Source: a virus. From it: a stretch of DNA of 42,803 nt. The notes under the pieces are model-generated. The model ran no database searches. It had not been told where the DNA came from and saw only the letters and a program-made list of their open reading frames with translations. The stretch is taken from positions 1 through 42,803 of the IMG/VR virus record IMGVR_UViG_3300028557_002630; one strand, written 5' to 3'. Positions within the stretch are counted from its first letter, which is position 1. Each line of letters opens with the position of its first letter. Positions 8,365 through 28,769 of this stretch are shown piece after piece. Both the position numbers and the translations under genes were made by a program.

Positions 8365-9273
8365 ATGCGTCGAGGCATTTGTTGCATTGTTCTAAGCTTG
8401 CAAGATATGGTTGAACCTAAAAAGTTCAAAACCATGACTTATAAAAAATTCAGCAGCATGAACCGCAAACAGGGTTTGCTGGAGCTGGGTAATCGTATTC
8501 TTAACAATATGATGGTGACAGGTGAAGCGATCAAATTCTGTTATCAAAACAATTACACTTATCGTTTGAGCAGTGATTTGTTTCCGCTTATCACATATGA
8601 AAAGTCTAAAGTAAGATTGGAAGATCTGCCCAATTATCTGCAAATATCTGATGCTATACTAAACATCAAGAATTATATTCAAAATTATCCTGTGCGTTTA
8701 TCATCTCATCCAAGCGAGTTTAATGTTTTGGCAACAGAAAAGAAAGATGCGCTGAGTCGTACCATCAATGAACTAAACTTCACTGGTTGGTTTTTAACCC
8801 AGTTGGGTTGCTCTCTTGATTACAACAATCCCATCAACATTCACATTAACAACAGCAGAGGAAATTTTGATGATATTGCTAAACGTTTTGTGGATAATCT
8901 AGGTTTACTAACAAATGATGCTAGATCCAGAATTGTGGTCGAGAATGATGACAAAACCAAATGTTGGAGTGTGCGCAAGCTTCTAAAACATTTATACCCT
9001 ATTATGATGGCTCCTATCACTTTTGATTATTTGCATCACAAATGTCATCCAGAAGAAATGATTGAAAAAGATGCGTTCAGTTTGAGTCGAGATACTTGGC
9101 GAAATTACCGTCCCCTATTTCATTACAGTGAAAGTCGGGAAGGTAAAAATCCTCGCGCTCACGCTGATTATGTGAAACAACTACCTGATACATACGGATT
9201 AGATGATATTGACATAGACTTTGAATTCAAAATGAAAGACAAAGCTTTTGTTAATGTTTCTGAATCTAATTGA
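8365..9273 (+). CDS. uvsE: UV damage endonuclease (UvdE/UvsE type)
   Basis: 302 residues, the usual bacterial UvsE length. The TIM-barrel repair endonuclease motifs are present: MRRGICCIVLSL at the N-terminus, YRLSSDLFP (66-74), RLSSHPSEFN (111-120), IVVENDD (190-196) and FHYSES (252-257) followed by RAHADY with His266. It nicks DNA 5' of UV photoproducts using divalent metals. The N-terminal strand matches the family, which fixes the start at 8365, directly at the predicted transcription start. Phages of lit surface environments often carry UV-repair genes; that link here is inference. Confidence 0.9.
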   Translation: MRRGICCIVLSLQDMVEPKKFKTMTYKKFSSMNRKQGLLELGNRILNNMMVTGEAIKFCYQNNYTYRLSSDLFPLITYEKSKVRLEDLPNYLQISDAILNIKNYIQNYPVRLSSHPSEFNVLATEKKDALSRTINELNFTGWFLTQLGCSLDYNNPINIHINNSRGNFDDIAKRFVDNLGLLTNDARSRIVVENDDKTKCWSVRKLLKHLYPIMMAPITFDYLHHKCHPEEMIEKDAFSLSRDTWRNYRPLFHYSESREGKNPRAHADYVKQLPDTYGLDDIDIDFEFKMKDKAFVNVSESN

Positions 9274-11785: not shown

Positions 11786-12871
11786 TTATAAACCAAAGGC
11801 TGCTGAAAACGCACTTGTAAGAGTTGTAAATGTTTGTGTTACAGGATTGTATTTTTTAAACGCAATCGTGTCCACATAAGCACTAAATCCATCATCAACA
11901 TTAATGAATGTACCAGCATGTACAAATACGTCTTTACTGTTTTCTCCTTGGAAAAATGCATTATATGAAATTGGCAATATGGTTTCTACAGCGCTTAAAG
12001 CAGCTACAAGGATAGCATCTGTAGCTATTTTCATTCTTTGAGCATATGTACCACCTTGAGTGGGAGAAGCTGCAGTCAAAGCATTTCTTGTGGTTGTATT
12101 CGAAAATAATGTATTAACAAGTGTATATTGTTGAAAATCATTAATTGTAAATTCAGCGCTAGGGAATGTTGGTGCTGTTGCACTCAATGGACCAACGATT
12201 CGGGCTTGGGCTGCATTAACGGCTCCACATGTTTGGCTTAGGTTTCCGCCTTGACCCCGACGTTTCATGAAACCTACTTGACCGCTCTTGGTGATTCCAA
12301 TATGAGGATGCACATATATGAATAACGCACCAGTTTCTGTTACGTGACTCATCCAAGCAAAAAGACCAACAATTCCAGGGAAAGGATATCCACCTATTCC
12401 TCCAGCAAAGAAAGGACCGCTAAATTGTTGCAGAGATACTGGATATTGACCGAATGTATTATTCGGGAAGATAGGAGCATTTTTATCATCAGAACATATA
12501 CAAGCTGCTGAAATAACATCATCTGGTGTATAACCACAAAGAGTTTGAATAAATGTGGCACATCTGCTTCCAAATGTTTCAGCCAAAACAGCATTAGGAT
12601 ATGTAAGTCTTACAGTATTTGTATAAGCGCTTTGATCTGCAGTAATTGCGGGTGATGTTGTAGTATTAAACAAAGCAAGATAATAGGTTGCTCCGTTTAC
12701 TAAAATAGGAAGTCCAGTAGAACCTTGGCTAAGAGTTAAGCCCGTCGTATAGTTAGAAGCACTTGTAGGAAAACCAAATGTGCTATCAATTAAATTTTTA
12801 AAATCATTACTAGAAGGTGTATTACCTGCTGAAAATGCATCATATAGTGCTTGTTTGCTTACAATTGACAT
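11786..12871 (-). CDS. LCIB/theta-type carbonic-anhydrase-like protein with phage structural N-terminus
   Basis: 361 residues. Residues 1-30 (KQALYDAFSAGNTPSSNDF at 6-24, then KNLIDS) look like the N-terminal segment of phage fibre/decoration proteins. Residues about 114-225 match the LCIB family of beta/theta carbonic anhydrases: ICSDD (Cys126, Asp128) where bacterial members have VCRDE, GGIGGYPFPGIVGLFAWMSH (157-176), HPHIGI (His190), a GxxG..R.GQ segment (197-207) and QTCGAV (Cys215). The Cys-His-Cys zinc ligands and their spacing are kept; the Arg of CRDE is Ser. If active it would hydrate CO2. It lies directly after the portal gene with GATAAATA 5 nt before its ATG, so it is a late, possibly virion, protein. 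Family call is from motif memory. Confidence 0.72.
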   Translation of the reverse strand: MSIVSKQALYDAFSAGNTPSSNDFKNLIDSTFGFPTSASNYTTGLTLSQGSTGLPILVNGATYYLALFNTTTSPAITADQSAYTNTVRLTYPNAVLAETFGSRCATFIQTLCGYTPDDVISAACICSDDKNAPIFPNNTFGQYPVSLQQFSGPFFAGGIGGYPFPGIVGLFAWMSHVTETGALFIYVHPHIGITKSGQVGFMKRRGQGGNLSQTCGAVNAAQARIVGPLSATAPTFPSAEFTINDFQQYTLVNTLFSNTTTRNALTAASPTQGGTYAQRMKIATDAILVAALSAVETILPISYNAFFQGENSKDVFVHAGTFINVDDGFSAYVDTIAFKKYNPVTQTFTTLTSAFSAAFGL

Positions 12872-12876
12872 AATAT

Positions 12877-12884
12877 TATTTATC
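12877..12884 (-). promoter_or_regulatory. Late-type promoter (GATAAATA) for the LCIB-like gene
   Basis: GATAAATA, then ATATT and ATG 12871; located just after the portal stop codon. No SD. Confidence 0.5.
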
Positions 12885-12885
12885 T

Positions 12886-14682
12886 TTAAGTCGCTTCAGG
12901 AGTTTGAGGAGTTTCAGGTGTTTCATCTGCTTCAGGAACTTCCGGGGCTTCCGGGGTTTCTTCATCTGCAGATCCTCCAGTAGGTGCGGTTGTTCCTCCA
13001 GCCGGAGAAGGTCCGAATTCAGGAGGAGTTTCTCCACCCCCACCAGCTTTTGGAGTTTTCCCGCCACTTTCAAATTGCTTACGCCAATCCGGACCGGCCC
13101 CACTAATCTGATCCAATTCCCATTTCATTTCAGCATCTTTACGAAGGAATTCACGGTTTGCCAATACCATACGATCTGTCCATCCCAGAATCTTCTTTTG
13201 CATATAAATCTTGCTGATGCTTTCATTATTAGTAATATTGTTGAATCCTTCTGTGCGCATCTGCATTTTTTGCAATTCACGCATTTCATAGAAATTGCTT
13301 GGTACATTAAATGCCAAATCAAAATGATTTTCTTTTAATCCGTATTCAGACCACATTTTCTTGAGTTTAAGATTTGTTATAAAACCATTCTTAAGACCTT
13401 CTGCAAATCTTTGTTGTTGTCGAATAATAAATTTTGAAAACTTTAATTCTTCCCGAAGAATTTCTGTTCCATCTTTATATGTGTCTTCAGGATTAAGACG
13501 AGAAGAAGGTACCTTGAGACTGCGATACAACTTCTTCATGAAATACATCAAATCTGTCAATTCTCCAAGATTTGCTCCACCTTGAAGTTGTTCCACAGTG
13601 GTTCCATCCTGACCTGTACGTTTAGCAAACCAAAAACTGTCCAACATGCTTTGTGGGTTGAACTTTTGAACAGTCGCATCCTGATTATTATCAAATGTTT
13701 TACGACTCCAATATTGGCTCATAAGACGGCGCATATAACCCTCGGCTTTGGCCGGACTCATATTTCCTACATCAACTTTGAAAACCAATTTTTCTGGGGC
13801 ACGAACAAGACGATAAATTACAATACTATCTTCAATAAGAGAAAGTTGACGATAAGCACGACGAGCATTTTCAAGGAAAGGAAGACGAACTGTTTTATTT
13901 TCATTCCATATTCCACTATTAATATAAGTGACCTGATTTTTATCCAATGGAACAATTTGATAGTCTACTACCTTTGTTGGATTGGTTTTGTCAAAAAGTG
14001 GCTTTCTCAAAACAAAACCTTTGACCATCAAGTTCTGAACATTTCCAAAAACAGGATCAACCAATTCTGGAGGAATGCTAACAACTCCTAAAATACCTTC
14101 CTGTGGATAATCTCTATGAATAATATGCTCGAAATAAATTTCAGCATCCACAAGCATATGCCTGAAATATTCCCAACCACGATTTTCCAATTCAAAAAGA
14201 TTAATATAACGATGAAACTCTTTTTGCAATTCTTCTTTTTGAATTTCCGACAAATCATCATCATGAAAACGAATTTTTACAATTTTACCTTCTTCATCCA
14301 CATTCACAACTTCATCACATATTTCATCTAAAGCATCTGCTACTTCTGAAAAAGCAGCCATGGTCCGATAATCCCGGATACGTGCAGCTTTATCAGCTTG
14401 TATGTTCGCATAAAGATAATTGGTAACACTATTATCACTGGCAATCGCACCTATACTGGTTTCATTAATTCCTGTGCTGCTGCTTACACTGTGTTTTGCA
14501 ATTGCTTCAGTTCTACGACTTCCTGTATCTTGAAAAAGTGCAAATTTTGGATTCAGCTGAGAAAGAACATCAACAACAGCATAGTTGTTGTATGGAAGAC
14601 GTTCATTTATAAACTTTTGTAAACTTCTTCCAAAAGTATTAGATCCTCGGTCATTTGTAGAGGAATAATCAGCTTGAGCCAT
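12886..14682 (-). CDS. Portal vertex protein (T4 gp20 type)
   Basis: 598 residues. T4-type portal signatures: the RIRDYRTMA...ALDEICDE region (about 100-125), IYRLVRAPEKLVFKVDVGN followed by AEGYMRRLMSQYWSRK, the GTTVEQLQGGANLGELTD loop, and YFMKKLYRSLKVPSSRLNPE. Dodecameric DNA-entry channel of the capsid and docking site for terminase and neck. The last 60 residues are a Pro/Thr/Glu-rich disordered tail. It heads a late unit: exact TATAAATA 6 nt before the ATG, no SD. Next in line are the LCIB-like gene and other structural genes rather than the T4 order 67-68-21-22-23. Confidence 0.93.
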   Translation of the reverse strand: MAQADYSSTNDRGSNTFGRSLQKFINERLPYNNYAVVDVLSQLNPKFALFQDTGSRRTEAIAKHSVSSSTGINETSIGAIASDNSVTNYLYANIQADKAARIRDYRTMAAFSEVADALDEICDEVVNVDEEGKIVKIRFHDDDLSEIQKEELQKEFHRYINLFELENRGWEYFRHMLVDAEIYFEHIIHRDYPQEGILGVVSIPPELVDPVFGNVQNLMVKGFVLRKPLFDKTNPTKVVDYQIVPLDKNQVTYINSGIWNENKTVRLPFLENARRAYRQLSLIEDSIVIYRLVRAPEKLVFKVDVGNMSPAKAEGYMRRLMSQYWSRKTFDNNQDATVQKFNPQSMLDSFWFAKRTGQDGTTVEQLQGGANLGELTDLMYFMKKLYRSLKVPSSRLNPEDTYKDGTEILREELKFSKFIIRQQQRFAEGLKNGFITNLKLKKMWSEYGLKENHFDLAFNVPSNFYEMRELQKMQMRTEGFNNITNNESISKIYMQKKILGWTDRMVLANREFLRKDAEMKWELDQISGAGPDWRKQFESGGKTPKAGGGGETPPEFGPSPAGGTTAPTGGSADEETPEAPEVPEADETPETPQTPEAT

Positions 14683-15149: not shown

Positions 15150-15968
15150 TTATACCTCCACCTGTAATTCGGTTGGACCAATAAATTGAGGATTTGCACT
15201 GATAGAAATGGTATCTGTATTTTGAAATGCACTATTGGGAGAATTGCTTGTGAATGATTGAGCTTCAAGATTTGCATAATTATCGTAATTCAATGAAACA
15301 CCTGGACCCGCTGCATTAAGATCTGTATTAATATAAAATATATTTTTAACATCTGGACTTTCAGCAGGGAATATCCAACCTTTTATTGTAAAACTGGTAT
15401 CTGCCACAATAAGAGATTTGTTGTTGGGATCCTGATCCACTGGATAATTCAGGTTAACAGTTCCGTTCCAAAGCACTTCGCTTCTTATTTCTTGAGGAAC
15501 TGCCAGATTATATGCTGTTGGAATTTGCCAGGAAATGATAATATAAGGATTGTTGAAAGGAATGAAATTGCTAAGAATCTGATCCATATCAGTTTGATAG
15601 CGAGTCAATATGCTCATGTTGATTCCTATATCAACAGGTGTGGGTGTTCTGAAATATGTTGTTTGGGCAGAAGAGTCTTCTATTCGAGTTGCTTGATTCA
15701 CATAGAATCCTGCAATTTTGTTAAAAACTCGATTTTCGTCCCTATTCAATCCTGTAATGGTTATGGCAACAACAGGAAGAGTGAGATTTTGACCAGGAGT
15801 TACAATATCAAAAAGAACTCGTTGTTTAGGCGCATAAAGGTAACGAACCTTTATTTGACTTTCAGAACTTCTATTTTTATTGAATCGGCGTATAACTGTG
15901 CCGTCAAAAGCATCTATGAAAGATGCTATAAGATCCTTTATTTCAAAATGATACGATTGTTGCAGCAT
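15150..15968 (-). CDS. Tail sheath stabiliser / tail completion protein (T4 gp15 type)
   Basis: 272 residues, the same length as T4 gp15. Shared landmarks: N-terminal YHFEIKDLIASFIDAFDG followed by Arg-rich IRRF, KVRYLYAPKQR (40-50), MSILTRYQTDMDQIL (118-132; gp15 has an IFTRYEDDMFQIV segment), and FTIKGWIFPAES (193-204; gp15 FEVNGWMYPP). gp15 forms the hexameric ring that caps the finished tail and joins it to the head. Its SD lies in a hairpin with the end of the upstream gene. Confidence 0.85.
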   Translation of the reverse strand: MLQQSYHFEIKDLIASFIDAFDGTVIRRFNKNRSSESQIKVRYLYAPKQRVLFDIVTPGQNLTLPVVAITITGLNRDENRVFNKIAGFYVNQATRIEDSSAQTTYFRTPTPVDIGINMSILTRYQTDMDQILSNFIPFNNPYIIISWQIPTAYNLAVPQEIRSEVLWNGTVNLNYPVDQDPNNKSLIVADTSFTIKGWIFPAESPDVKNIFYINTDLNAAGPGVSLNYDNYANLEAQSFTSNSPNSAFQNTDTISISANPQFIGPTELQVEV

Positions 15969-17517: not shown

Positions 17518-18077
17518 GCCGTAGATCTTAAAAAAATTGCATCGGAAACTTTATAAAACATATCCACTATGGTTTGAGAAAACTTATGAACCTGTTCTTC
17601 ATTCAATCCCATTTCATATGTATATATAGGTGCATTATCACCAGCTTTATTGCATATTGCAATATGACCTATGCTACAAGAATTGATTATTCTGTATTTG
17701 GCAATATTCAATATTCCTTGATTCTGTATAATGCTTTTTCTTTGGAATTCTTTCGTAACAATCATATTATCCATGTTTACTGCAATTGGCATTTTAAGAA
17801 ATTCTTGAGAAAGAATATTGGCAATTGAACTTACAAGAAAATGTGAGAACAGTGCCCCCGATACAGCGTCCTGAACAAGAGGATTTTCATAAACAATGTG
17901 AATTGCTTCCTGCATTTGATCGATAGAAAATTGAGAAAAGTCATAACCTTTTCCCGGATCCAATTCTCCAGCAAAAACAATAACGTTTCCACTTGGAAGT
18001 GCCTTATCTTTAAAATAGGCATGAGCAAACCTTTTATTGATGATTTCCAGATTATATTTTTGTTTTGGTAGTATCAT
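17511..18077 (-). CDS. DUF366-like conserved protein
   Basis: 188 residues. The order of features resembles DUF366 proteins: N-terminal RFAHAYFKDKALPSGNVIVF, an acidic middle with MQEAIHIVYENPLVQDAVSG and SHFLVSSI (family MVDLEDV...I.s..m.HFi.E), and a C-terminal half with ILNIAKYRIINSCSIGHIAI and QTIVDMFYKVSDAIF. The family's function is unknown. ATG overlaps the GMP reductase stop (ATGA), suggesting a shared nucleotide-metabolism role, which is inference. Confidence 0.45.
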   Translation of the reverse strand: MILPKQKYNLEIINKRFAHAYFKDKALPSGNVIVFAGELDPGKGYDFSQFSIDQMQEAIHIVYENPLVQDAVSGALFSHFLVSSIANILSQEFLKMPIAVNMDNMIVTKEFQRKSIIQNQGILNIAKYRIINSCSIGHIAICNKAGDNAPIYTYEMGLNEEQVHKFSQTIVDMFYKVSDAIFLRSTAC

Positions 18078-19066
18078 ATGATTCTATAATTTGTATGGGA
18101 CAGATCAGTAATATTATATCCTCCCGAATAAGAAATGCTACTCTGTAAATCCTGTTCTATTTCCAAAAGCATTTCTGCATATGTTTTGTCATTCTCTTCA
18201 ACCAAAACAGTTGTCCCTTCAATATTTTCAACAGAAAGATTGTTTATGATTTTATTTTCATAACTAGCAGATCCAAAATATTTTTTATATAATTTTGGTT
18301 TCTTAAATTCATCATGACTTTTTGAATCTGTTACAGGATATTCTATAATTCTATCTGCAGGACTATCTAAGCATGCTGCAAACATACTTCCAACCATATT
18401 GATAGCGGAACCTGCAACAATGCTCTTGGCTATGTCTCCATGACAACGAACACCGCCATCAGTCATTATAGGCACATCCACTTCTGCACACTCCTGAATG
18501 CATGTAAACACTGGAAGTGTAAACCCCGTCTTATCTTTGGTTATACATGCTTTGCCTGTGCCTATTGCCACCTTGACCATGTCTGCGCCCCAATCCTTCA
18601 AATCTTGTGTTCCTTGTTTGGTAGTAACATTTCCTGCAATAACAAATGTATCAGAAAAATTACTCTTAATCTTTTTTATGGCTTCTTTTACCAATTCATG
18701 ATGACCATGAGCAACATCGATTGTCAAACAATCTATCCTTAGATTTCTTTTTTTAACTTCTTCTACTACAGACCAGCAATTTGGTCCAACACCAACTGAA
18801 GCACTGATGAATTTCCAATTTTCATCGTTTGCTTTTTGTATAAAATCTATCACATCACAAAAACGATGCATCACATAAAAATAACCAGATTCTGATAAAA
18901 ATTTAGCCAAAGATTCATTAATCGTGCATACCATATTGGACGGGCAAATTGGTAGCTTGAATTTCTTACCAGCCAAATTTACAGAAGTATTAGCATGCTT
19001 TCGTGACACAAGACAGCTGTATTTTGGAATAAGAACAATGTCTTCAAACCCTAATGCCTTATTCAT
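18074..19066 (-). CDS. guaC: GMP reductase
   Basis: 330 residues, full length and lacking the CBS domains of IMP dehydrogenase. Motifs match the Gram-positive-type GuaC: GFEDIVLIP (6-14), PSNM (42-45), DVAHGH (117-122), IAGNVTT, GTGKACITKDKTGF with the nucleophilic Cys174, DGGVRCHGDIAKS, YFGSAS and the C-terminal DLQSSISYSGG. It converts GMP to IMP with NADPH, releasing ammonia, and so moves guanine into the adenine/IMP pool; sensible for an AT-rich genome. ATGA overlap with the DUF366-like gene downstream; 22 nt gap from rmlD upstream. Confidence 0.93.
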   Translation of the reverse strand: MNKALGFEDIVLIPKYSCLVSRKHANTSVNLAGKKFKLPICPSNMVCTINESLAKFLSESGYFYVMHRFCDVIDFIQKANDENWKFISASVGVGPNCWSVVEEVKKRNLRIDCLTIDVAHGHHELVKEAIKKIKSNFSDTFVIAGNVTTKQGTQDLKDWGADMVKVAIGTGKACITKDKTGFTLPVFTCIQECAEVDVPIMTDGGVRCHGDIAKSIVAGSAINMVGSMFAACLDSPADRIIEYPVTDSKSHDEFKKPKLYKKYFGSASYENKIINNLSVENIEGTTVLVEENDKTYAEMLLEIEQDLQSSISYSGGYNITDLSHTNYRII

Positions 19067-19088: not shown

Positions 19089-19916
19089 TTAAAATAAATA
19101 AAGTTGTGAACTAAATTCATTCATTTCTCTAATTTGAATATTTAAATCTGGAATATTAAAAAGTGAATTTTCTTTGTAAATTGTTTGTAATGTACGATCA
19201 CATTTCTTTCCAGATTCTGCTTCCTTCAAGTTTACTTTTATTTTATAAACATCAGTGATGAGTTTAACTAATTCATATTTGTTCAATGATCTTGGTGAAA
19301 GGGCATGACGTGTTCCTGTCCACCATATGTTCTTCTCTATCATGGTTTCAATTATTTTTGCATAAGTCAAACAAGTTACTCCATTCCATAAGTGATCTGT
19401 AAATCCTTTTGCTTCTTTTCCATCTAAGGTTTTACACCACTCCACAAGGCTTCTTTTATTGACTGTTTCCTCACCAATAATGCTTACTCTTAAATTAGTG
19501 GCATGCTTTGTTTCACCCAAATACTTGGTGACACCATATACATCACCTACATCCAAATCCTCCTTTTCTGTATATGCACCTGTATTTCCAGAATAAATGC
19601 AGTCAGTTGTCGGATGTAAAAGTTTGAAACCCTTTTCTTTAGAAAGATCTGCCAAAATCCTGGGAACAATAGAATTTACTTTAATTGCATTAATTTCTCC
19701 CAGCTCATCACATCTTGGTTTGATGGTTCCTACGCAATTAACAACAATATCATTTACACCAAGATCATATAATTTATTAAAATTATTTTTTAAATTATCA
19801 GTATCTGAGACGTCCAAATCCTCACGTGTAATTCCTTTGACAACGAAATTCTTTCCAAGATATTTAAAAATATATTTTCCAAGCATTCCATTCTTACCCA
19901 ATACAATTATTTTCAT
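19089..19916 (-). CDS. rmlD: dTDP-4-dehydrorhamnose reductase-like SDR
   Basis: 275 residues from the ATG of MKIIVLGKNGMLGKY. RmlD features: GxxGxxG loop (LGKNGMLG), NCVGTIKPRCDE, HPTTDCIYSG, YGVTK (YxxxK catalytic pair) and WNGVTCLTYAK. Family reaction: NADPH reduction of dTDP-4-keto-rhamnose to dTDP-rhamnose. Start chosen at the ATGA overlap with the cupin gene (19913-19916), with AAGGAGG upstream; an earlier ATG six codons up is not supported. Last gene of the glycan island. Confidence 0.85.
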   Translation of the reverse strand: MKIIVLGKNGMLGKYIFKYLGKNFVVKGITREDLDVSDTDNLKNNFNKLYDLGVNDIVVNCVGTIKPRCDELGEINAIKVNSIVPRILADLSKEKGFKLLHPTTDCIYSGNTGAYTEKEDLDVGDVYGVTKYLGETKHATNLRVSIIGEETVNKRSLVEWCKTLDGKEAKGFTDHLWNGVTCLTYAKIIETMIEKNIWWTGTRHALSPRSLNKYELVKLITDVYKIKVNLKEAESGKKCDRTLQTIYKENSLFNIPDLNIQIREMNEFSSQLYLF

Positions 19917-20392
19917 CGGTAATCCTCCTTCCAAATATCCACAAGATCATAGTCAAATCGGAAATCATCTCCCAATGATTCCTGAAGTGTGCTTGTGCTG
20001 AAGAATTGAATTATAGTATCCTTCTCTAATGATTTAAATCCATTCGCATAACCAGATGGAATATACACAATTTTAGGATTGTTTGCGGATAAAACAGTTT
20101 TAAAAATATTTGAATTATCCAATTCAATGTTTTCGTTTTTATGCTTTTTGCTTTTCAAATCCAGCATAATATCAAAAGGAACTGCACCAATCAAAGCTGT
20201 TCCTTTTGCAACATAAACATACTTGGCTTCTTTCTGGTGAGCATGCCAAGCCCGGATGAATCCTTCCCTATGATTTTGTACCTGATAAAATCTTTTAACT
20301 CCTTCAAAATTGAAATCATTTACAAAACGAACAGATCCACGATCATCTGTTGCCAAACCACCATTCAATGTTTTAATTTCATTTTTTTCCAT
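19913..20392 (-). CDS. RmlC-like cupin (dTDP-4-dehydrorhamnose 3,5-epimerase related)
   Basis: 159 residues. Cupin of the RmlC-related group: TDDRGSVRF (15-23), RFYQVQNHREGFIRAWHAHQ with WHAH at the place of the RmlC active-site His, KYVYVAKGTALIG, and VYIPSGYANGF. It may epimerise or isomerise a 4-keto sugar nucleotide between RmlB and RmlD steps. AAGGAG 6-7 nt before the ATG; overlaps the SDR gene upstream by 14 nt. True RmlC or a 3,4-ketoisomerase relative cannot be separated here. Confidence 0.78.
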   Translation of the reverse strand: MEKNEIKTLNGGLATDDRGSVRFVNDFNFEGVKRFYQVQNHREGFIRAWHAHQKEAKYVYVAKGTALIGAVPFDIMLDLKSKKHKNENIELDNSNIFKTVLSANNPKIVYIPSGYANGFKSLEKDTIIQFFSTSTLQESLGDDFRFDYDLVDIWKEDYR

Positions 20393-21344
20393 AAAGTCTC
20401 CTTATATAATTTCCGTTGTGATAAACATCATCGGTGAGTTGCTTCACACGTTTTTGTTTAAAAACATCGTTCATTTCTTTTATTCCATAAACCAATGAAT
20501 ATTGAGGATTCCATCCTGTTTGCATAATCTTTTCATTTTTAACCTTATAGTTCCTAAGATCTTCAAATGGTATTTCGCTATATTCAATTTTTGCAGATGG
20601 AATTTCTTCTTTTATGGTTTCAGCAATTTCACGCATTGTGGCATTTCTTTCAGAAAGATTATAAATTCCTGAAATATTATTTGAAATTGCAAACAATGTT
20701 GCATTCGCCACATCTTTTACATGCAAAAGAGGTCGCCATTGTTCTCCACCAAATACCTTTAATGTCTCACCCAAAGATGCCTTGAGTGTTAATACATTTA
20801 CAACCAGATCCAAACGTAGCCGACTATGACTATCACCTACTCCATAAAGAGTTCCCAGTCTGAAAATCAAACTATCCGGTCTTTTAGAAAAAAGATACTG
20901 TTCTGCTTCAAGTTTTGTTTCAGCATAAATGGAAAGAGGATTGGGTGTTGCATTTTCATCGATAAGATCATCGTTTTTTCCATAAACTGAACATGTTGAA
21001 GTGAAAATTATTTTCCCCTTATAATTGTCTGTTATCCATTTAACAGGAGTAACGTTAATATCATAAGATAATTGTTTGTCTACAGCACATGCAGGATCTC
21101 CAACCAATGCTGCAAGCAATACAACAACTTTATAATTATGAATTACCTTATCCAATTCTTTCACATCTCGAACATCAATATTATAAAAATCTACTTCTTT
21201 TAAGAAACGATCTTCATAAATCAAATTGTCTAAAACTGCAGGCTTTAACAGATTATAATTTTTTGTTGATGGTGACTTCGTTATAAGATCAGTCAAATAA
21301 CCTCCAATATATCCTGATCCACCAATGATTAGTATTTTATTCAT
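20379..21344 (-). CDS. NAD-dependent sugar epimerase/dehydratase (extended SDR)
   Basis: 321 residues: IIGGSGYIGGYL (NAD loop, 6-17), LLAALVGDPA, FTSTCSVYG, YAETK (YxxxK), RLGTLYGVG, and WRPLLHVKDVA. Resembles UDP-glucose 4-epimerase/dTDP-glucose dehydratase relatives found beside WHAH cupins in LPS clusters; the exact substrate is not readable. First gene of a three-gene set (SDR, cupin, RmlD) that overlap one another. No SD; TTGAAA-N17-TATAAA ends 5 nt before ATG. Confidence 0.85.
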   Translation of the reverse strand: MNKILIIGGSGYIGGYLTDLITKSPSTKNYNLLKPAVLDNLIYEDRFLKEVDFYNIDVRDVKELDKVIHNYKVVVLLAALVGDPACAVDKQLSYDINVTPVKWITDNYKGKIIFTSTCSVYGKNDDLIDENATPNPLSIYAETKLEAEQYLFSKRPDSLIFRLGTLYGVGDSHSRLRLDLVVNVLTLKASLGETLKVFGGEQWRPLLHVKDVANATLFAISNNISGIYNLSERNATMREIAETIKEEIPSAKIEYSEIPFEDLRNYKVKNEKIMQTGWNPQYSLVYGIKEMNDVFKQKRVKQLTDDVYHNGNYIRRLYGKK

Positions 21345-21349
21345 ATATT

Positions 21350-21378
21350 TTTATATACCAACTTATAAAAAATTTCAA
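21350..21378 (-). promoter_or_regulatory. Sigma70-type promoter inside the glycan island
   Basis: TATAAA (21350-21355), 17-nt spacer, TTGAAA (21373-21378); 5 nt to ATG 21344. The 70-nt gap 21345-21414 is the largest in the island. Confidence 0.5.
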
Positions 21379-21414
21379 TAAGTTTAAAAAATTTTTATAT
21401 TTAAATTATAATTT

Positions 21415-22068
21415 TTATAATTTTATTTTGTAATCCATGAATGTTTCTGATTTACCTACGTCAATACTAAAAAATGATTCAGACCATGGTAGAAATTTTA
21501 TATTTGTTTTTTCACCTATGTTATAGTCGTAAGTTTCTTCCGGCAATAATCGTTTTACATATTTATCCTCTGGTAAATCACCATGCTCCCATTTTTTATC
21601 AAAATGAGTTTTTGTATTTGATATGTTCCATCCTGAACTCATAAGTATATAATCTATTTCAAATGAATTATACATGGCAATATTACCCTCCATCATTCTT
21701 CTTAAATAATCACAATCTTCATAATTACCACCAATGAATCTTTCATCCATAAATCCAATACGTCTAAATAATTCTTTTTTAAATCCAAAAAATCCCCATG
21801 CATATAACCCAGCAAATCCATATCCTTGTTCTAAAAGATCAAGTACTTTTTCTATGTGTTCTTTTTTTGGTCTAGCTTTATCACTACAAATAATAATAAT
21901 TTCTGTAGGTGACTCAACAACACAATCGTTTATTAGTTTTGAAAATGATGGATAACCATGACCATTTTTCCAAATTGATTCTTCACCTATGTTTTTCAAA
22001 TGACTGATTAATTCATCTTTCAAAGCGTCCCTATTGCTTGGTACTATTATCGTATAATTTTTATTCAC
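21415..22068 (-). CDS. Glycosyltransferase, GT-A (family 2-like)
   Basis: 217 residues: TIIVPSNRDA start, IIIICSDKARP (strand 4 region), FGFKKELFRRIGFMDERFIG and GGNYEDCDYLRRM, the acceptor-side ED motif of GT2 enzymes. A canonical DxD is not clear. Starts at GTG 22068; AGAAGGGGA upstream could act as SD but belongs to a degenerate copy of another GT gene end. Likely transfers one sugar in the phage-encoded glycan. Confidence 0.75.
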   Translation of the reverse strand: MNKNYTIIVPSNRDALKDELISHLKNIGEESIWKNGHGYPSFSKLINDCVVESPTEIIIICSDKARPKKEHIEKVLDLLEQGYGFAGLYAWGFFGFKKELFRRIGFMDERFIGGNYEDCDYLRRMMEGNIAMYNSFEIDYILMSSGWNISNTKTHFDKKWEHGDLPEDKYVKRLLPEETYDYNIGEKTNIKFLPWSESFFSIDVGKSETFMDYKIKL

Positions 22069-22150
22069 TTTTTTCCCCTTCTTGTATGCGATATACTAGC
22101 GAATCGAAAACTGTTACATGTTTCATATCGTATTTTTTATTTAATTTTTT
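22061..22150 (-). pseudogene. Remnant of a duplicated glycosyltransferase 3' end
   Basis: In one frame the 30 codons before the GT gene read KKLNKKYDMKHVTVFDSLVY then RIQEGEKSE and stop. The intact GT at 26609-27361 ends LEKKYGMKHVTVMNSIVYHV then QEGEKSE and stop. Near-identity at protein level without a start or upstream domain shows a leftover of a gene duplication or recombination. The GTG of the downstream gene lies in its last codons. Confidence 0.7.
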
Positions 22151-23044
22151 TTAAAAAACTGGTATCGTTTCGGCTTTACATCCACCAAACCACCACATAC
22201 ATTCCGCAAATGTACTAAGACGACTGCAGACCAACATATCACTTTTTGCACCCAATAACATGGTTGCTGCCGAATACTGCATTTGTGTAATATGATCTGG
22301 TTTGATATATGTCACGACATTATAATCTTTCAAATAATCAAAATATTCTGGTAAAACACTGTCTTTATCACATGTAAGAAAAATAGTTTTTGCTTTTGGT
22401 AAAAATTTATCAATTGCATTTTTATATGTTTCAAAATTATAATCTCTTATAACGCCATCACGTATTTGAGTACAATTAGGAGGATCAAGCTCATGCTTCC
22501 AGGTTCTTATTTGTATTGTTAGTAATGGATATTCAAATTGTTTAGAAACTCTATCTACTTCGGATAATACTTCATTTTTCCATTTAATCTTTTTAATTCC
22601 GCTCTGGATTCGATTATATACTGTATCACATATAAGATTTCTGTCAAAAAACCAATCAATAGAATGTGTTGAAAACAAATATGCAAGCTTTTTATTTACT
22701 ATATTAGGATGATCCCCCAGTACTTTCGCATCATTTATTAAATCAGGTTGTTCTGTCTCTTCTGATTTTAAAATAAGAAGTCTTGCTGAAATGACAGATT
22801 CTCCGAATTCATGAGGACCATGGCAAATTAAAGAATCATCAAAAATTTCTCTACAATCAGCAACAAACTCAAACCAATATCTAACTGTCGGTAATACAAA
22901 AGATTCTCCAAATTCATATGGACTGTATCTAATTAAAAAATCATTAACTCTTGGTAATATATTGGTTTCTCCTATGCTTAAAGCTGTAACAAACGACTTA
23001 AGAAAATTACATAAACCAGATTCTATTTGAACTGTAAATTTCAT
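22151..23044 (-). CDS. Fucosyltransferase-like glycosyltransferase (NodZ/O-FucT fold)
   Basis: 297 residues. It shows the three peptide landmarks of the GT-B fucosyltransferase superfamily (GT11/23/65/68): LTIQIRTWKHE (family 'hvRr.D'), IFLTCDKDSVLPE (family 'vfiaTDd'), and MLLGAKSDMLVCSRLSTFAE followed by MWWFGG (family 'l..sd.fv.t..Ssf'). Donor is probably a GDP-sugar, which fits the Gmd gene two genes upstream. Starts 12 nt after the GT4-like stop. Confidence 0.7.
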   Translation of the reverse strand: MKFTVQIESGLCNFLKSFVTALSIGETNILPRVNDFLIRYSPYEFGESFVLPTVRYWFEFVADCREIFDDSLICHGPHEFGESVISARLLILKSEETEQPDLINDAKVLGDHPNIVNKKLAYLFSTHSIDWFFDRNLICDTVYNRIQSGIKKIKWKNEVLSEVDRVSKQFEYPLLTIQIRTWKHELDPPNCTQIRDGVIRDYNFETYKNAIDKFLPKAKTIFLTCDKDSVLPEYFDYLKDYNVVTYIKPDHITQMQYSAATMLLGAKSDMLVCSRLSTFAECMWWFGGCKAETIPVF

Positions 23045-23056
23045 ATAAATTAGATA

Positions 23057-24010
23057 TTATTTGACGAACTCGTTTATCATGCTTGTCCATTTTTCCCGAC
23101 ACCGTTCAAGTGTGTATTCTTTTGAATAAAATTTACGGGGACTAAATAATTTACGATTATTGATAACGTATCTTATTGTCTGAGTAAAATCTTCGTCATT
23201 GGCTATTAATCCCCAAGTCTTATCGTCTTTTCTATCCAAATAACAACCCATGGGTCTTGCCACCATTGGTATATCACACGCCCCAATTTCTATCCCAGCA
23301 AAATGTCCTTCTTCATTTCCTGAAGTACAAATGCCACATACTGATGAATTAATTAAAAGTCTGACTGTATTAGTATTAACTCTGTTAAATATGCGTACAC
23401 GATTTCTACTTTGATGGGGAATTACATCCAAAGTGGTGTTATCTTTCATCACCAAGCAAAAATTAAAATCCGGCATTACTTCTATGAGATTTAAAACTCT
23501 ATGAAAACCTTTTTTATGATACGAGGAATCTCCTATAAAAAGGATTGAATTGGGTAACACATCTGGGTGTCTTTCGGGGATGGGTTTAAAAAAATTAAAA
23601 TCGGATGATTGTTCAATAACCCGCACATTTTTAGGGTTGATTCTATCTTTATAAAAATTATATGTTTGCTTTGAAGCGAAAACTACACAAGTAGATGTGT
23701 TTATAACCTCTGTTTGCATGGGTTCGTTCATCATATCTTGAATTAAACAAAACGTAGGTACATCGATATTAAGTTTGCGGAAATAAGAACCGTTCCTGAT
23801 AATATAATCAGGATAAGGTTTGATGGACTCTATTACATTTGCAAGTATTGAATAATCTGTATATCCATTGCATTTATCTTGAAGATTGGGAAACCAATCC
23901 AATAAATCATGCCAAAACGTTCTTGTATTAGGTATACAGGTCAAGCAATCATTTACCAGCCACCCATTTTTAGATTGTCCCCATTTGGATTTATCTACTA
24001 TGTTATTCAT
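23057..24010 (-). CDS. Glycosyltransferase, GT-B (family 4-like)
   Basis: 317 residues. C-terminal nucleotide-sugar domain visible: ILFIGDSSYHKKGFHRVL (after about residue 150), RVRIFNRVNTNTVRLLINSS, and GNEEGHFAGIEIGACDIPMV, the 'E(x7)E'-type motif of GT4. The N-terminal half would bind the acceptor. One nt after the gmd stop. Substrate unknown; a GDP-sugar donor is plausible from its neighbours. Confidence 0.78.
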   Translation of the reverse strand: MNNIVDKSKWGQSKNGWLVNDCLTCIPNTRTFWHDLLDWFPNLQDKCNGYTDYSILANVIESIKPYPDYIIRNGSYFRKLNIDVPTFCLIQDMMNEPMQTEVINTSTCVVFASKQTYNFYKDRINPKNVRVIEQSSDFNFFKPIPERHPDVLPNSILFIGDSSYHKKGFHRVLNLIEVMPDFNFCLVMKDNTTLDVIPHQSRNRVRIFNRVNTNTVRLLINSSVCGICTSGNEEGHFAGIEIGACDIPMVARPMGCYLDRKDDKTWGLIANDEDFTQTIRYVINNRKLFSPRKFYSKEYTLERCREKWTSMINEFVK

Positions 24011-24011
24011 G

Positions 24012-24989
24012 TTATGTCGTTTTTTTATAAAAATCTAACCAATATTCAATCATCTCGTCCATTAATTGTTCAAACGTATAATCAGGTTTCCACCCTAATT
24101 CGGTTGTAATTTTGGTACAATCACCTCTTAGGTATGGCAATTCTTCAGGTCTTAAAAATTTCGGATCTTGCACAATATAATCTTTGTAATTTAATTGTAA
24201 TTTATCAAAAACATAGTTACACATATCTCTAACAGAACGTGTTTCTCCTGTTGCCACTACCCAATCATCAGGTTTATTATGTTGTAATATTAAATGCATT
24301 GCCCGTACATAATCTTTTGAATGACCCCAATCTCTTTTAGAGTCCAAATTACCCATCACTAATTTGTCTTTCATACCTAATTTAATTTCTATTGCGGTTT
24401 TAACCACTTTGTTTGTTACAAAGTTACTGCCACGTCTTGGTGATTCGTGATTAAATAAAATACCATTACTCGCAAATAATTTATATGCTCTTCTATAATT
24501 ACGAACTATATTGTATCCAAATACCTTTGAACAACCATAAGGACTAACAGGGTTCATAACTGTTGTTTCCTTTTGAGAACCATCTTCTTCTACGGATAAA
24601 CCAAACATTTCTGAACTACTTGCTTGATACAATTTAGCATTTGGGCATGCATGTTTATATGCCTCCAATATATTAATAACACCCAATGCATTTGTTTGTA
24701 CTGTAAATTGTGGAATATCAAAACTTATTCTGACATGAGATTGAGCGGCTAGATTGTAAATTTCATCTGGTTGTATTTCCCGCAACAACCTTTCCATTAC
24801 TCCTTGATCTAACAAATCACCATAATGCACATGTATTTTATCTCTTACCGAGTCCAATCTTGTTTGTTGATGTTCAGGCATAGAATTTCTGCGCACAATT
24901 CCATATATTTCATATCCTAACGAAATCAGATGTTCGGTCAAATAGCTTCCATCTTGTCCATTTATACCTGTAATAAATGCTTTTTTCAT
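24012..24989 (-). CDS. gmd: GDP-mannose 4,6-dehydratase
   Basis: 325 residues, full length. GINGQDGSYL (8-17) is the Gmd-specific NADP loop; RRNSMPEHQQTRLD, HYGDLLD (55-61), SSSEMFG (124-130), PYGCSK with Tyr151/Lys155, NHESPRRGSNFVT and RDWGHSKDYVRA are all diagnostic. It makes GDP-4-keto-6-deoxymannose, the precursor of GDP-fucose, rhamnose and perosamine. No GMER is visible, but a DegT aminotransferase follows upstream in the message, favouring perosamine. TATAAATA lies 11 nt before its ATG. Confidence 0.95.
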   Translation of the reverse strand: MKKAFITGINGQDGSYLTEHLISLGYEIYGIVRRNSMPEHQQTRLDSVRDKIHVHYGDLLDQGVMERLLREIQPDEIYNLAAQSHVRISFDIPQFTVQTNALGVINILEAYKHACPNAKLYQASSSEMFGLSVEEDGSQKETTVMNPVSPYGCSKVFGYNIVRNYRRAYKLFASNGILFNHESPRRGSNFVTNKVVKTAIEIKLGMKDKLVMGNLDSKRDWGHSKDYVRAMHLILQHNKPDDWVVATGETRSVRDMCNYVFDKLQLNYKDYIVQDPKFLRPEELPYLRGDCTKITTELGWKPDYTFEQLMDEMIEYWLDFYKKTT

Positions 24990-25000
24990 GTTTATAGTCG

Positions 25001-25008
25001 TATTTATA
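25001..25008 (-). promoter_or_regulatory. T4-type late promoter octamer before gmd
   Basis: Exact TATAAATA, 11 nt before ATG 24989; unlike the others it would leave a leader of about 5-6 nt. No SD in it. Confidence 0.5.
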
Positions 25009-25011
25009 ATC

Positions 25012-25025
25012 GCAATAAATATTGC
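25012..25025. repeat. Short inverted repeat upstream of gmd
   Basis: GCAATA and TATTGC with a 2-nt centre, immediately upstream of the TATAAATA element, in the 51-nt gap between gmd and the DegT gene. Possible operator; short enough to be chance. Confidence 0.3.
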
Positions 25026-25040
25026 AATAGTTATTACTTT

Positions 25041-25649
25041 TTAAAATGTCCCATGACCAGAAAACACTGACATTTTTGTTAAATCTGGCCAATCTTGGTA
25101 TTTCCATTTTCTTGGTTTTGTTTCAATCGCTTGTGTTAACTTATTAAGTCCTAACTGCGCTGTCTCTGGTGTCATATAGTAATGGTATCCCATTATCTGA
25201 ATATTTTGTTCTCTCCAAGGTATATCAGGTAAACGTCCATCATAACTCATTTTTTTGAGTATAACTGCATCTTCTTTATTATCCAGTAATATCATTCCTC
25301 CACGACCCAAGCTTAAATGTTTTTGGAATTGAAAACTTAGACACATATAAGTATTTGGGATATAGCTATTTTTTTCCCATAATACTGCAGCATCAATTAT
25401 TTTTTTATCATCATAATTTAAATTATAAAAATTATCCCATTGTTCATCTCTCCAATTTAATTTTATTTTTAATTTATTGGCCAACATGGGTATGGACAAA
25501 TATGTACGTACCGGAACACTAATTTTTGTTATATTGTTTAATCTTAAACATAATTCAATACCATGCGTACAACTATCAATAGCCACTGCATAAGGCGCAT
25601 TAAAAAAAAGCGCAATTTCATTTTCAAATTTTGTTACTGTGTTAAACAT
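25041..25649 (-). CDS. DegT/DnrJ/EryC1-type aminotransferase, minimal (202 aa)
   Basis: PLP sugar aminotransferase core: YAVAIDSCTHGIELCL (20-35; cofactor phosphate loop), DAAVLW (86-91; Asp86 pairs with the pyridine N), SFQFQKHLSLGRGGMI (105-120; Lys110 is the Schiff-base lysine), and GYHYYMTPETAQLGLNKL (154-171). Normal family length is about 370 residues; this ends soon after the GYxYxM helix and lacks the C-terminal small domain. Either a shortened but active version or a 3'-truncated gene. Beside gmd it suggests GDP-perosamine synthesis (PerA-like). One nt after the acetyltransferase stop. Confidence 0.8.
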   Translation of the reverse strand: MFNTVTKFENEIALFFNAPYAVAIDSCTHGIELCLRLNNITKISVPVRTYLSIPMLANKLKIKLNWRDEQWDNFYNLNYDDKKIIDAAVLWEKNSYIPNTYMCLSFQFQKHLSLGRGGMILLDNKEDAVILKKMSYDGRLPDIPWREQNIQIMGYHYYMTPETAQLGLNKLTQAIETKPRKWKYQDWPDLTKMSVFSGHGTF

Positions 25650-25650
25650 T

Positions 25651-26175
25651 TTAGTTATTATAACTTAATTTTTTTGCATTAGAAATAGCTTTGGTGCCAT
25701 CAATTTTTTTAGTTAATACTGCAGGATTTCCTTTATATACACCCCATTCTTCGGTATCACCTAATAATAAACTTCCGGCAGCCAATAATACACCTTTTCT
25801 TAATCTGGAACCTGGTAGTACGATTGAATTTGTTCCTATATTAGAAAATTCATCCATAATTACAGGTTCTATAATTTGCTTGCCTTTTAGTTCATGCGGT
25901 ATCATTGCTCCAAACAAACCGCTATCGTCAAATCTGTCAGATCCGCATATTATTCTAGCTCCTGCCATTATGTTGTTAAATCCTTTAGCAATAAAGTTAG
26001 CAGTTTTACCTCCTAAAATAGTTACATAAGGACTGATGTGTACATAATTACCAATTGATATTTGTGTTGTACAATAAAACCCTTTATCTATAGCAACATG
26101 ATTATATATGATACAATTATCTTTTTGTTTTATTACAATATCCAAATCTAAAATTACATCCTCGCCAATTTTCAC
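25651..26175 (-). CDS. Hexapeptide-repeat acyltransferase
   Basis: 174 residues. Left-handed beta-helix signature: repeated [IVL]-G-x4 units (ISIGNYVHISPYVTILGGK, ICGSDRF, IVLPGSRLRKGVLLAAGSLL, GVYKGNPAVLTKK), as in maltose/galactoside and sugar-nucleotide acetyltransferases. It likely acetylates a sugar amine or hydroxyl, a natural partner of the DegT aminotransferase. GTG start overlapping the upstream stop (GTGA at 26172-26175). Confidence 0.85.
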   Translation of the reverse strand: MKIGEDVILDLDIVIKQKDNCIIYNHVAIDKGFYCTTQISIGNYVHISPYVTILGGKTANFIAKGFNNIMAGARIICGSDRFDDSGLFGAMIPHELKGKQIIEPVIMDEFSNIGTNSIVLPGSRLRKGVLLAAGSLLLGDTEEWGVYKGNPAVLTKKIDGTKAISNAKKLSYNN

Positions 26176-26585
26176 AAAATAAATCTTTTATCAATTTTTT
26201 GACCATAATACGGACCAGTTTTATATTCATAAACAAATGTATCATCTTCTAATATTAAATAATTATGCCCGCCTGCAAATGTAAAACTAGCATCTCCAGC
26301 TGATAATATCGGCTCCGCAATTATAATATCATCTATATCATAAAAAATACATTGTACTTTTCCTTTTATAACACACCAACTTTCTTGTGGTATATAATTT
26401 TCATCATGTCTTGGATTGATAATATGCTTGTGCGGCTTGAATGTTTGTCCTTTAGGCAGCTTTAATGCAGCACATTGCAAGTATGCTTCTTCCGAACTTA
26501 AATCTAGGCGCTTGGATACAATGTCACTACTTCTTACAATTTGATGAAGAAGCTTACCGTTAATTTTAGAGTATATTTTTTCCAT
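26172..26585 (-). CDS. Cupin-fold protein of LPS cluster (WbuC-like)
   Basis: 137 residues with a single cupin: KGQTFKPHKHIINPRHDEN (metal-binding His region), ESWCVIKGKVQCIFYDID and FTFAGGHNYLILEDDTFVYE. Resembles small cupins found in O-antigen clusters (WbuC type) whose reactions are not established. First gene after the GT at 26609; no SD and no clear promoter in the 23-nt gap. Confidence 0.65.
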   Translation of the reverse strand: MEKIYSKINGKLLHQIVRSSDIVSKRLDLSSEEAYLQCAALKLPKGQTFKPHKHIINPRHDENYIPQESWCVIKGKVQCIFYDIDDIIIAEPILSAGDASFTFAGGHNYLILEDDTFVYEYKTGPYYGQKIDKRFIL

Positions 26586-26608
26586 AATAAATAATTTGTT
26601 TTTATATA

Positions 26609-27361
26609 TTATTCGCTCTTTTCCCCTTCTTGAACATGATACACAATCGAATTCATCACTGTGACATGCTTCATTCCATATTTTTTTTCTAAAATGTCCT
26701 CGAAGAAATAAACATCTCCCGGTTTATATACAGGTCTGTCGTTTGGATATCCGGCGTATTTGATTCCGTCAATTTTAAATACATTTCCGGGCGGATACAA
26801 TCCCGCTTCTATAAATCTTTGTTTTTCAAAAACACACGGCATAAGAAGACCCCAAGGCTTTATTTCGTCTTTGGATATTGTTTTGGTATATTTTTCAAAT
26901 TCAGCACGATTGAAACTTTCTGGAGTCATTCCAAAGTTTTTTGGAATTCCATGCCGTTCTGTCGCTACATTAATTCGCCCACTTTCCACCAGTCTGCTAC
27001 AGGGAATATTAATTCCGTCATGATATTTTAATAAATTGTCCAGCCAATTTGGTGAAAATCCCATATCCGAATTTACAAAACAAATGTTGTCATATTTGCT
27101 ACTGGTTGCGCCAAAATTCCAACACCGGTAAACCCGGTTAAGATAAAAATCATTCGGAGATTTATCCCTGTAAATTGTATGGGGTATTTGCATTTCCGTA
27201 AGCGTGATTTCTATTTCCGGAGTAGGATCATTTGCAACTATCCGATAGCTTACATCCCAATCTTTGGATTTACACAAATCACTGTTCAACTGATTGTAAA
27301 TAAAATTTAAATATTTTTTTGATTTAAAAATTAAACAAACTAACTCAATATTTTTTTTCAT
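26609..27361 (-). CDS. Glycosyltransferase, GT-A family 2-like
   Basis: 250 residues from the ATG in the ATGA overlap with the methyltransferase gene (an ATG nine codons earlier is not needed). GT-A features: RVYRCWNFGATSSKYDNICF followed by VNSDMGFSPNWLDNLL (VNSDM at the DxD position), PWGLLMPCVFEKQRFIEAG and VYFFEDILEKKYG (acceptor Glu-Asp). Its last 25 or so codons have a degenerate copy at 22061-22150. Confidence 0.82.
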   Translation of the reverse strand: MKKNIELVCLIFKSKKYLNFIYNQLNSDLCKSKDWDVSYRIVANDPTPEIEITLTEMQIPHTIYRDKSPNDFYLNRVYRCWNFGATSSKYDNICFVNSDMGFSPNWLDNLLKYHDGINIPCSRLVESGRINVATERHGIPKNFGMTPESFNRAEFEKYTKTISKDEIKPWGLLMPCVFEKQRFIEAGLYPPGNVFKIDGIKYAGYPNDRPVYKPGDVYFFEDILEKKYGMKHVTVMNSIVYHVQEGEKSE

Positions 27362-27960
27362 TTGTTTTTTACCTGAAAAATATTCCATTCAAACGAAAAA
27401 GGATCCCCGAACCAATAAGGTCCGACGGCTCTTGCCATTTTTTTATTGCTCATTTTAACTATTTCCATCATTTTTTCATAAGAATAAAAATAAATCATAG
27501 CTTGATTCAAATCACTTAAAATTAAACTTGATAGTTTTGTTTTTTCTGGATTTAGCGAAGCAAACTGAAAACTAAACCAAGCACCTTCTTTCAGATTAAC
27601 CTCATTAATAATTCTCAAAACTTCTTGTTCGTGACAATGTTGAAAGGTAAGATGGCTAATTGCAAAGTCTACCGGTTCAATTTGTTTTAAATTTTTTGAT
27701 ATAACTGTTTTTAAGCATAGAGATTCCACATTTTTAAGAGCAATTTCCGAAACATCACAACCTATTACTTTATTGTTTTTTGATAATTCTTTGATTGCCT
27801 CTCCTCGTCCCACACCAATTTCTAAAATTATTTTATTTTCAGGCAAATCTAATTTGTGATAATTCAGAATTTCACCCAGTCCAGAAGATGTTACAAAGTT
27901 TTTATCATCTGTTCTGATATGAAAATCGTCCCATTGATTTTCTTTGTATGTTTTTGTCAT
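27358..27960 (-). CDS. Class I SAM-dependent methyltransferase
   Basis: 200 residues. Motif I ILEIGVGRGEAIKEL (about 45-59) with the GxGxG loop, motif II VIGCDVSEIALKNVES (acidic Asp binds the SAM ribose), and a motif-IV-like VDFAISHLTFQHCHEQE, typical of small sugar or lipid O-methyltransferases (Methyltransf_11/25). Within a glycan island it may cap or modify the sugar chain. Followed by the GT gene through an ATGA overlap. Confidence 0.85.
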   Translation of the reverse strand: MTKTYKENQWDDFHIRTDDKNFVTSSGLGEILNYHKLDLPENKIILEIGVGRGEAIKELSKNNKVIGCDVSEIALKNVESLCLKTVISKNLKQIEPVDFAISHLTFQHCHEQEVLRIINEVNLKEGAWFSFQFASLNPEKTKLSSLILSDLNQAMIYFYSYEKMMEIVKMSNKKMARAVGPYWFGDPFSFEWNIFQVKNK

Positions 27961-27985
27961 ATAAATTTACTCAGGTTTAAGAATT

Positions 27986-28768
27986 TTATTTCTTAAGCTT
28001 TTCGGCATATAATTCTATCAATACTTTTTTTTCTTTTGGATTTGACAAATTTTTCAATTCATACCATGCAGGAATTATGTTTTCTGGCAATTTTTCCACA
28101 GTGAGCGTTTCTTCATCTATCAAACGATCCAATTCCCAGCCTTTTTGTCCCAAAGAGCGATAATTCAAATACTTTTCAACAATGTTATCGTCATTACTAA
28201 ACCCCTTATGAATTACACTCACATCTACTGGGCACCCCTTTATGGTTCCTTGAGGAACTTGACCATGATGCAATCCCTTCGTATCGGGAAACCAAAGTCT
28301 TTGAGGCTGACCCCACAATGGAAACCAATGCATATGCAAATTGTGATATCCCTGATCGACTCGATACCACACATCAGATCTCCACAAATTATAGTGTCCG
28401 AAGCAAGGAAGATCTATACCTTTGTCATCTAATTTTTTGCACAAACGCCGCAGATTGTCGTCAATCAGAAGTCTTCCATCCAGTATAAGATCTCCGTCCA
28501 GCCACAAAATCCAATTCACATCCGGGTGTTCTTTTAATAGAAGTCTGTAAAGTTCTCCTTTGCATATTAATTCTTCATTAAAACGGTTAGTAGGACTGTA
28601 TAAAACTGTGGTTTTATGCTTATACTTTTCATATATCTCACGACTATTGTCCGTGCTGGCGTGATCCCATATGTAAATGTGGTTACACGGTTCCATGCAT
28701 CGGAACCAATTTTCCAAGTTTCCTCGGGACGCTTCGTTTCTTAGTTGACCGAATCCTATAATTTTCAT
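27986..28768 (-). CDS. Glycosyltransferase, GT-A with DGD motif
   Basis: 260 residues from ATG 28768 (1 nt after the upstream stop; AAGGAGG lies further up). N-terminal MKIIGFGQLRNEASRGN, then HIYIWDHASTDNSREIYEKY (nucleotide-binding D-x-S-x-D region) and WILWLDGDLIL containing DGD, the probable metal-binding DxD; later HWFPLWGQPQRLWFPDTKG and VIHKGFSN. Resembles GT2/GT92-like transferases acting on surface glycans. Confidence 0.8.
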   Translation of the reverse strand: MKIIGFGQLRNEASRGNLENWFRCMEPCNHIYIWDHASTDNSREIYEKYKHKTTVLYSPTNRFNEELICKGELYRLLLKEHPDVNWILWLDGDLILDGRLLIDDNLRRLCKKLDDKGIDLPCFGHYNLWRSDVWYRVDQGYHNLHMHWFPLWGQPQRLWFPDTKGLHHGQVPQGTIKGCPVDVSVIHKGFSNDDNIVEKYLNYRSLGQKGWELDRLIDEETLTVEKLPENIIPAWYELKNLSNPKEKKVLIELYAEKLKK

Positions 28769-28769
28769 A

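Follow-up and report, generated by a model that had tools for sequence, protein, structure and literature searches.

An LCIB-family protein, probably a carbonic anhydrase, encoded among the structural genes of gp23-type bacteriophages

In Chlamydomonas reinhardtii, the proteins LCIB and LCIC have a role in the chloroplast CO2-concentrating mechanism. Their structures (5k5w and 5b5x) belong to the same family and fold as PtLCIB4 of the diatom Phaeodactylum tricornutum (5b5y, 5b5z and 5b60), entry 6kfs and the phage protein that we describe here. The phage protein shares with PtLCIB4 and 6kfs the Cys-His-Cys triad, an aspartate, the equivalent of His88 and a serine (position 47 in PtLCIB4, 127 in the phage protein), at an overall identity of ~20%. 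In having this serine it resembles the active diatom form, whereas the Chlamydomonas proteins carry CRDE. It departs from PtLCIB4 and 6kfs by an added N-terminal module, an insertion of ~9 residues after CSDD and a C-terminal extension of ~20 residues, and by being encoded among virion genes. Bacterial proteins of the family (PF18599) are 22–31% identical to the phage protein and have the same family-invariant residues, but they consist of the bare domain (~231 amino acids) and lack the viral insertion and extensions.

Two further groups of proteins are relevant for comparison. Classical beta-carbonic anhydrases (2a8c and 1ddz) bear a remote likeness in fold and likewise have a zinc site of two cysteines and one histidine; they carry a CxDxR motif, where the phage protein has CSDDK instead. 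A carbonic anhydrase fold, of the alpha type and unrelated to the LCIB fold, is also found in D8 of vaccinia virus. D8 sits on the particle of an animal virus, where it serves as an adhesin that binds chondroitin sulfate (PMC4256255).

The gene lies in the window, that is, the whole stretch of DNA that was analyzed, an entire IMG/VR virus record of 42,803 bases from a virus of bacteria. The open reading frame listing places it at 11786–12871 on the minus strand, with an ATG start and 361 codons for amino acids. The original prediction had put an LCIB/theta-type protein directly after the portal gene, and this is what we find: the portal gene (PF07230, 8e-105) ends at 12886, 14 nt upstream. A tail sheath stabiliser gene (PF16724, 1.2e-18) belongs to the same run of structural genes. 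The locus comprises the following elements:

15150–15968, minus strand: tail sheath stabiliser gene, T4 gp15 type
12886–14682, minus strand: portal protein gene, T4 gp20 type
12877–12884, minus strand: T4-type late promoter motif GATAAATA
11786–12871 (stop codon included), minus strand: LCIB-type carbonic anhydrase gene
12632–12871, minus strand: N-terminal module, residues 1–80, phage-specific and fast-evolving
11846–12631, minus strand: LCIB carbonic anhydrase domain, about residues 81–342
11789–11845, minus strand: C-terminal extension of the viral clade, about residues 343–361

Elsewhere in the window, positions 19089–31702 hold a long stretch of genes that, read by sequence, are of nucleotide-sugar and glycosyltransferase-like types (dehydratases, epimerases and transferases), which suggests a phage-encoded glycan pathway. 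Next to it lies a gene of IMP dehydrogenase/GMP reductase type (18074–19066; PF00478, 4.5e-51) with homologues at 46–47% in the genomes G003 and G011, and a UV-damage endonuclease gene, UvdE, is encoded on the plus strand at 8365–9273 (PF03851, 1.3e-32). In the genome G008, the portal reading frame (contig C1, 34782–36551) contains one in-frame TAA.

Every feature that we tested assigns the window protein to the LCIB family as a true member, and both the viral setting and the architecture in which it occurs are new. It matches PF18599 (LCIB_C_CA) at 6.7e-25, with 88.1 bits against a cut-off of 25, and this cut-off is passed by all 40 viral records searched. A single-sequence search of the PDB with phmmer gave significant matches to LCIB-family proteins only (6kfs as the best at 2.8e-13, PtLCIB4 at 4.9e-10), and a profile of 52 sequences matched the PDB structures at 9.6e-59, with Chlamydomonas LCIB and LCIC also found. 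An alignment of 14 close phage sequences lacked depth and gave an AlphaFold model with a mean pLDDT of 56.5; we replaced it with a 52-row alignment, whose model reached a mean pLDDT of 80.4 and exceeded 90 over most of the core, while residues 1–80 were modelled poorly. The predicted fold came out LCIB-like. When this model was compared with the PDB by Foldseek, all seven matches with E <0.001 were LCIB proteins, led by PtLCIB4 (1.7e-13; target TM-score 0.82), and classical beta-carbonic anhydrases followed next at E 0.04–0.06. Among the predicted viral structures of BFVD the model had no significant match, and an Rfam search returned nothing.

Upon comparison with the solved structures, the three residues that the original prediction had singled out as a zinc triad (Cys126, His190 and Cys215, in ICSDD, HPHIGI and QTCGAV contexts) line up with the equivalent cysteines and histidine of LCIB. 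Judging from the alignment to PtLCIB4, they would converge into a zinc site. The codons of the putative active site, all on the minus strand, are:

12494–12496, minus strand: Cys126, predicted zinc ligand, invariant in viral and bacterial sequences
12491–12493, minus strand: Ser127, at the PtLCIB4 Ser47 position by alignment to 5b5y and 5b60, Arg in Chlamydomonas LCIB
12488–12490, minus strand: Asp128, invariant in viral and bacterial sequences
12344–12346, minus strand: His176, equivalent of PtLCIB4 His88 by alignment to 5b5y, invariant
12302–12304, minus strand: His190, predicted zinc ligand, invariant in viral and bacterial sequences
12260–12262, minus strand: Arg204, invariant in viral and bacterial sequences
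12227–12229, minus strand: Cys215, predicted zinc ligand, invariant in viral and bacterial sequences
11900–11902, minus strand: Asn324, invariant in viral and bacterial sequences

The residues that do not vary across the window, viral and bacterial sequences include C126, D128, H176, H190, R204, C215, G216 and N324. These eight are kept in all 65 distinct viral sequences of the family except one cut short by the end of its contig; for the final scan for relatives, which was also the largest, the seed was the Gly-rich loop and not the ligands. S127 and H176 correspond by alignment to Ser47 and His88 of PtLCIB4 (a numbering derived from the mutant names), which are the residues altered in 5b60 and 5b5z. 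Position 127 is Ser in 60 viral sequences and Ala in four, and never Arg. The original prediction had described CSDD as standing in for a usual CRDE. CSDD is indeed present, but CRDE belongs to Chlamydomonas LCIB; in PtLCIB4, the active diatom protein, the motif reads CSDE, and a serine at position 127 is therefore what an active member should have. The original prediction had not decided between an enzyme and a reused zinc fold; the fully conserved active site favors an enzyme.

Relatives of the window protein are widespread. A profile that included bacterial sequences and was seeded only on the Gly-rich loop found them on at least 89 viral contigs of IMG/VR, up to 272 kb in length; narrower searches gave 19 viral loci as close relatives, and 30 when the profile included the solved structures. 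Bacterial relatives were collected from 51 loci (L039–L089), mostly of Bacteroidota and Balneolota, with Planctomycetota and others also represented. The viral sequences group into a single clade that is separate from the bacterial and algal ones, with support of 100/99 in a tree of 22 rows and an SH-aLRT of 99 in a larger tree of 48 rows made by a quick method. In neither tree are they nested among host copies, and in both the nearest non-viral sequence is L039, from a cellular-looking contig of a Chitinophagaceae MAG. A major capsid protein of the gp23 type was present in 21 of the 40 viral records searched for a capsid gene, many of the others being fragments.

Searches of annotated phage and plasmid records and of isolated-phage and plasmid collections gave no match, and the open-licence PMC papers searched contained carbonic anhydrase in giant-virus and virome reports, and no phage LCIB. 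The statement in the original prediction that no phage case had been described is thus borne out in the isolated-phage, plasmid and literature libraries searched, and the viral clade is a branch of its own, apparently without earlier description. For one group of these phages, that of L034, a Bacteroidota host is indicated by the tail sheath, which is 54% identical to that of Flavobacterium phage immuto. Gene order in this phage follows that of L034 from a small gene to the sheath, tube and hub genes; at the place of LCIB it has other genes. A cyanophage host was considered and rejected: a psbA-family gene was absent from the 17 records searched, and the nearest portal relatives are those of cyanophages at only ~32% identity, which is little informative.

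Three regions distinguish the viral proteins from their bacterial relatives. The stretch between positions 131 and 150 has a median of 18 residues in viral and nine in bacterial sequences, the tail after aligned position 340 a median of 21 versus three residues, and the N-terminus carries modules of several unrelated kinds. The module of the window protein is missing from bacterial homologues and has low model confidence. Its best PHROG match is weak and not significant (E 0.014), and a search for other heads on this module returned LCIB copies only. The idea that the N-terminus looks like a phage fibre or decoration protein therefore finds no significant family match in the window's own module, and the case for it comes mainly from relatives. 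In L036 and L038, the LCIB domain is fused to an N-terminus that in L034-type phages heads the upstream neighboring gene, and the SGSNTFVGDQTITGS motif of this N-terminus recurs in fibre-like proteins of ~1000 amino acids on other contigs. In another group, the N-terminal module of the LCIB protein is also found on small neighboring proteins; in the MIQGIRITS group, as in L036 and L038, the N-terminal module is common to LCIB and other virion-type proteins. LCIB forms the middle part of a 776-amino-acid protein in L167 and L168. Counting against a virion role, the viral members tested had no PHROG virion-family match below 0.01.

Adjacent pairs of LCIB genes occur in L030, L164, L165 and L166. 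One copy of such a tandem has an N-terminal module and the other is nearly without, and the active-site residues are intact in both; the paired products might form a hetero-oligomer. The second copy of L030, with almost no N-terminal module, counts against mounting on the virion. In L193 (3392–3775), L188 (1578–3779) and L174 (3063–3749), neighboring proteins have C-terminal repeats such as IPNNDL or LDIPNGDLLY, and the module that LCIB proteins also carry sits on one of these neighbors.

Most viral LCIB genes adjoin genes for portal, major capsid, tail sheath, baseplate-like or fibre-like proteins. The LCIB gene directly follows the gp23 major capsid gene in L010, L011 and L013, lies between the head-tail adaptor and tail sheath genes in L031–L038, and is found near virion structural and fibre-like genes in L019, L028 and L030; in L167 the adjoining gene looks, on visual inspection, like one for a baseplate spike. 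One fibre-like protein near the LCIB gene, in L019 (5991–8534), has 847 amino acids and RCC1 repeats. The context is mixed in L174, L170, L189 and L196, which form one group: DNA polymerase and sugar-related genes are among the neighbors, and those contigs that have a capsid gene carry it ~50 kb from LCIB, which makes a structural operon less evident. Upstream of the LCIB gene, L196 (622–5125) encodes a 1090-amino-acid protein with a Nol-like carbamoyltransferase, an enzyme with a bicarbonate-derived substrate, as its first half.

A late-type promoter, also proposed originally, is seen in the window as GATAAATA, 5 nt before the ATG. The motif NATAAATA occurs within 25 nt upstream of 7 of the 52 window ORFs, against 0.27 expected, an enrichment that is explained in part by AT-rich upstream regions, since in a control over 21 permutations of the motif, ATAAATA came second to TAAATAA, its own sequence shifted by one base. 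Motifs similar to GATAAATA precede most LCIB genes in the window and L017–L019 groups; directly upstream of L034-type LCIB genes, a T4-type late motif was not seen.

The LCIB core is under strong purifying selection: dN/dS was 0.03–0.16 in nine of the ten pairs with estimable dS and 0.31 for L036/L034, with dS saturated in some pairs. For the N-terminal module, dN/dS ranged from 0.08 to 0.70, and in most pairs dN was higher than in the core. Phages of the window type and of the G003 type have LCIB proteins that are 80% identical and almost no other gene in common, and they differ in GC content (33% versus 39%) and strongly in tetranucleotide make-up, which suggests lateral movement between phages. 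The same differences in GC and tetranucleotides rule out that the two types, whose gene contents are complementary, are halves of one two-copy genome. Between the window and the near-identical phage G002, dS was 0.54 at LCIB and 0.17 at the portal, a weak signal given that dS is uneven along the contig, from 0.02 to more than 2.

The agreement of fold and homology, the invariant residues, the late motif and the relatives' placement among virion genes with swappable modules support a late-made, virion-linked carbonic anhydrase of the LCIB type, in line with the original prediction. In the mechanism that we propose, one lineage of gp23-type contractile-tailed phages would long have carried an LCIB-type (theta/beta-like) zinc carbonic anhydrase that is made late in infection. 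An exchangeable N-terminal module would mount the protein on the virion, in the head, neck, baseplate or fibre region, leaving the enzyme domain exposed. The enzyme would most likely still interconvert CO2 and bicarbonate, and the resulting change in bicarbonate and protons would be local, either at the particle or cell surface during attachment and entry or inside the cell late in infection, and may benefit the phage. That the protein is a late-made, probably virion-borne and probably active carbonic anhydrase of gp23-type phages we consider an even bet. The further-reaching proposal, an old, widespread and apparently undescribed clade of catalytically competent LCIB-type carbonic anhydrases built into gp23-type phage particles and acting at the cell surface or entry, is one that we advance tentatively, at somewhat below even chances.

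Other explanations share parts of this evidence. The virion gene context and the swappable modules would also suit a zinc-stabilised carbonic anhydrase fold that has taken on a non-catalytic role, as an adhesin or as a structural head of the virion, for which vaccinia D8 offers a precedent (PMC4256255), and a dS raised at LCIB relative to the portal is what exchanged alleles of a surface gene would give. That dS signal is weak, however, for the unevenness noted above, and throughout the viral clade, which is very deep, every catalytic-site residue is kept and not the ligands alone, where an adhesin would be expected to have lost some. Such a reuse is in our estimate unlikely, if still a serious contender. 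The kept active site and the late motif are, for their part, consistent with a soluble late enzyme, the product of an auxiliary metabolic gene that would provide bicarbonate for making nucleotides or keep the pH of the infected cell in balance, and that stands among structural genes through co-expression; the carbamoyltransferase gene of L196 and the replication or sugar genes beside LCIB in some groups point the same way. Fusion to modules common to fibre-like neighbors, the 776-amino-acid multidomain form and the recurrence of LCIB next to head, neck, tail and fibre-like genes argue against a soluble enzyme, as do the separateness of the viral clade, whose copies are not host-like, and the absence of a psbA-family gene from the 17 records, and we regard it as unlikely. 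Finally, three residues could stand in similar contexts by chance, without homology. Nothing that we found favors this, and three methods reject it (6.7e-25 for Pfam, 9.6e-59 for the PDB profile and 1.7e-13 for Foldseek), making it improbable in the extreme.

If the reading of a virion-borne enzyme is true, the protein would be the first of the carbonic anhydrases to be proposed for a phage particle, and one would have to ask what use CO2/bicarbonate chemistry is to a virion. With the viral clade, the LCIB family reaches well past the members known from algae and bacteria, and many unannotated phage proteins become testable.
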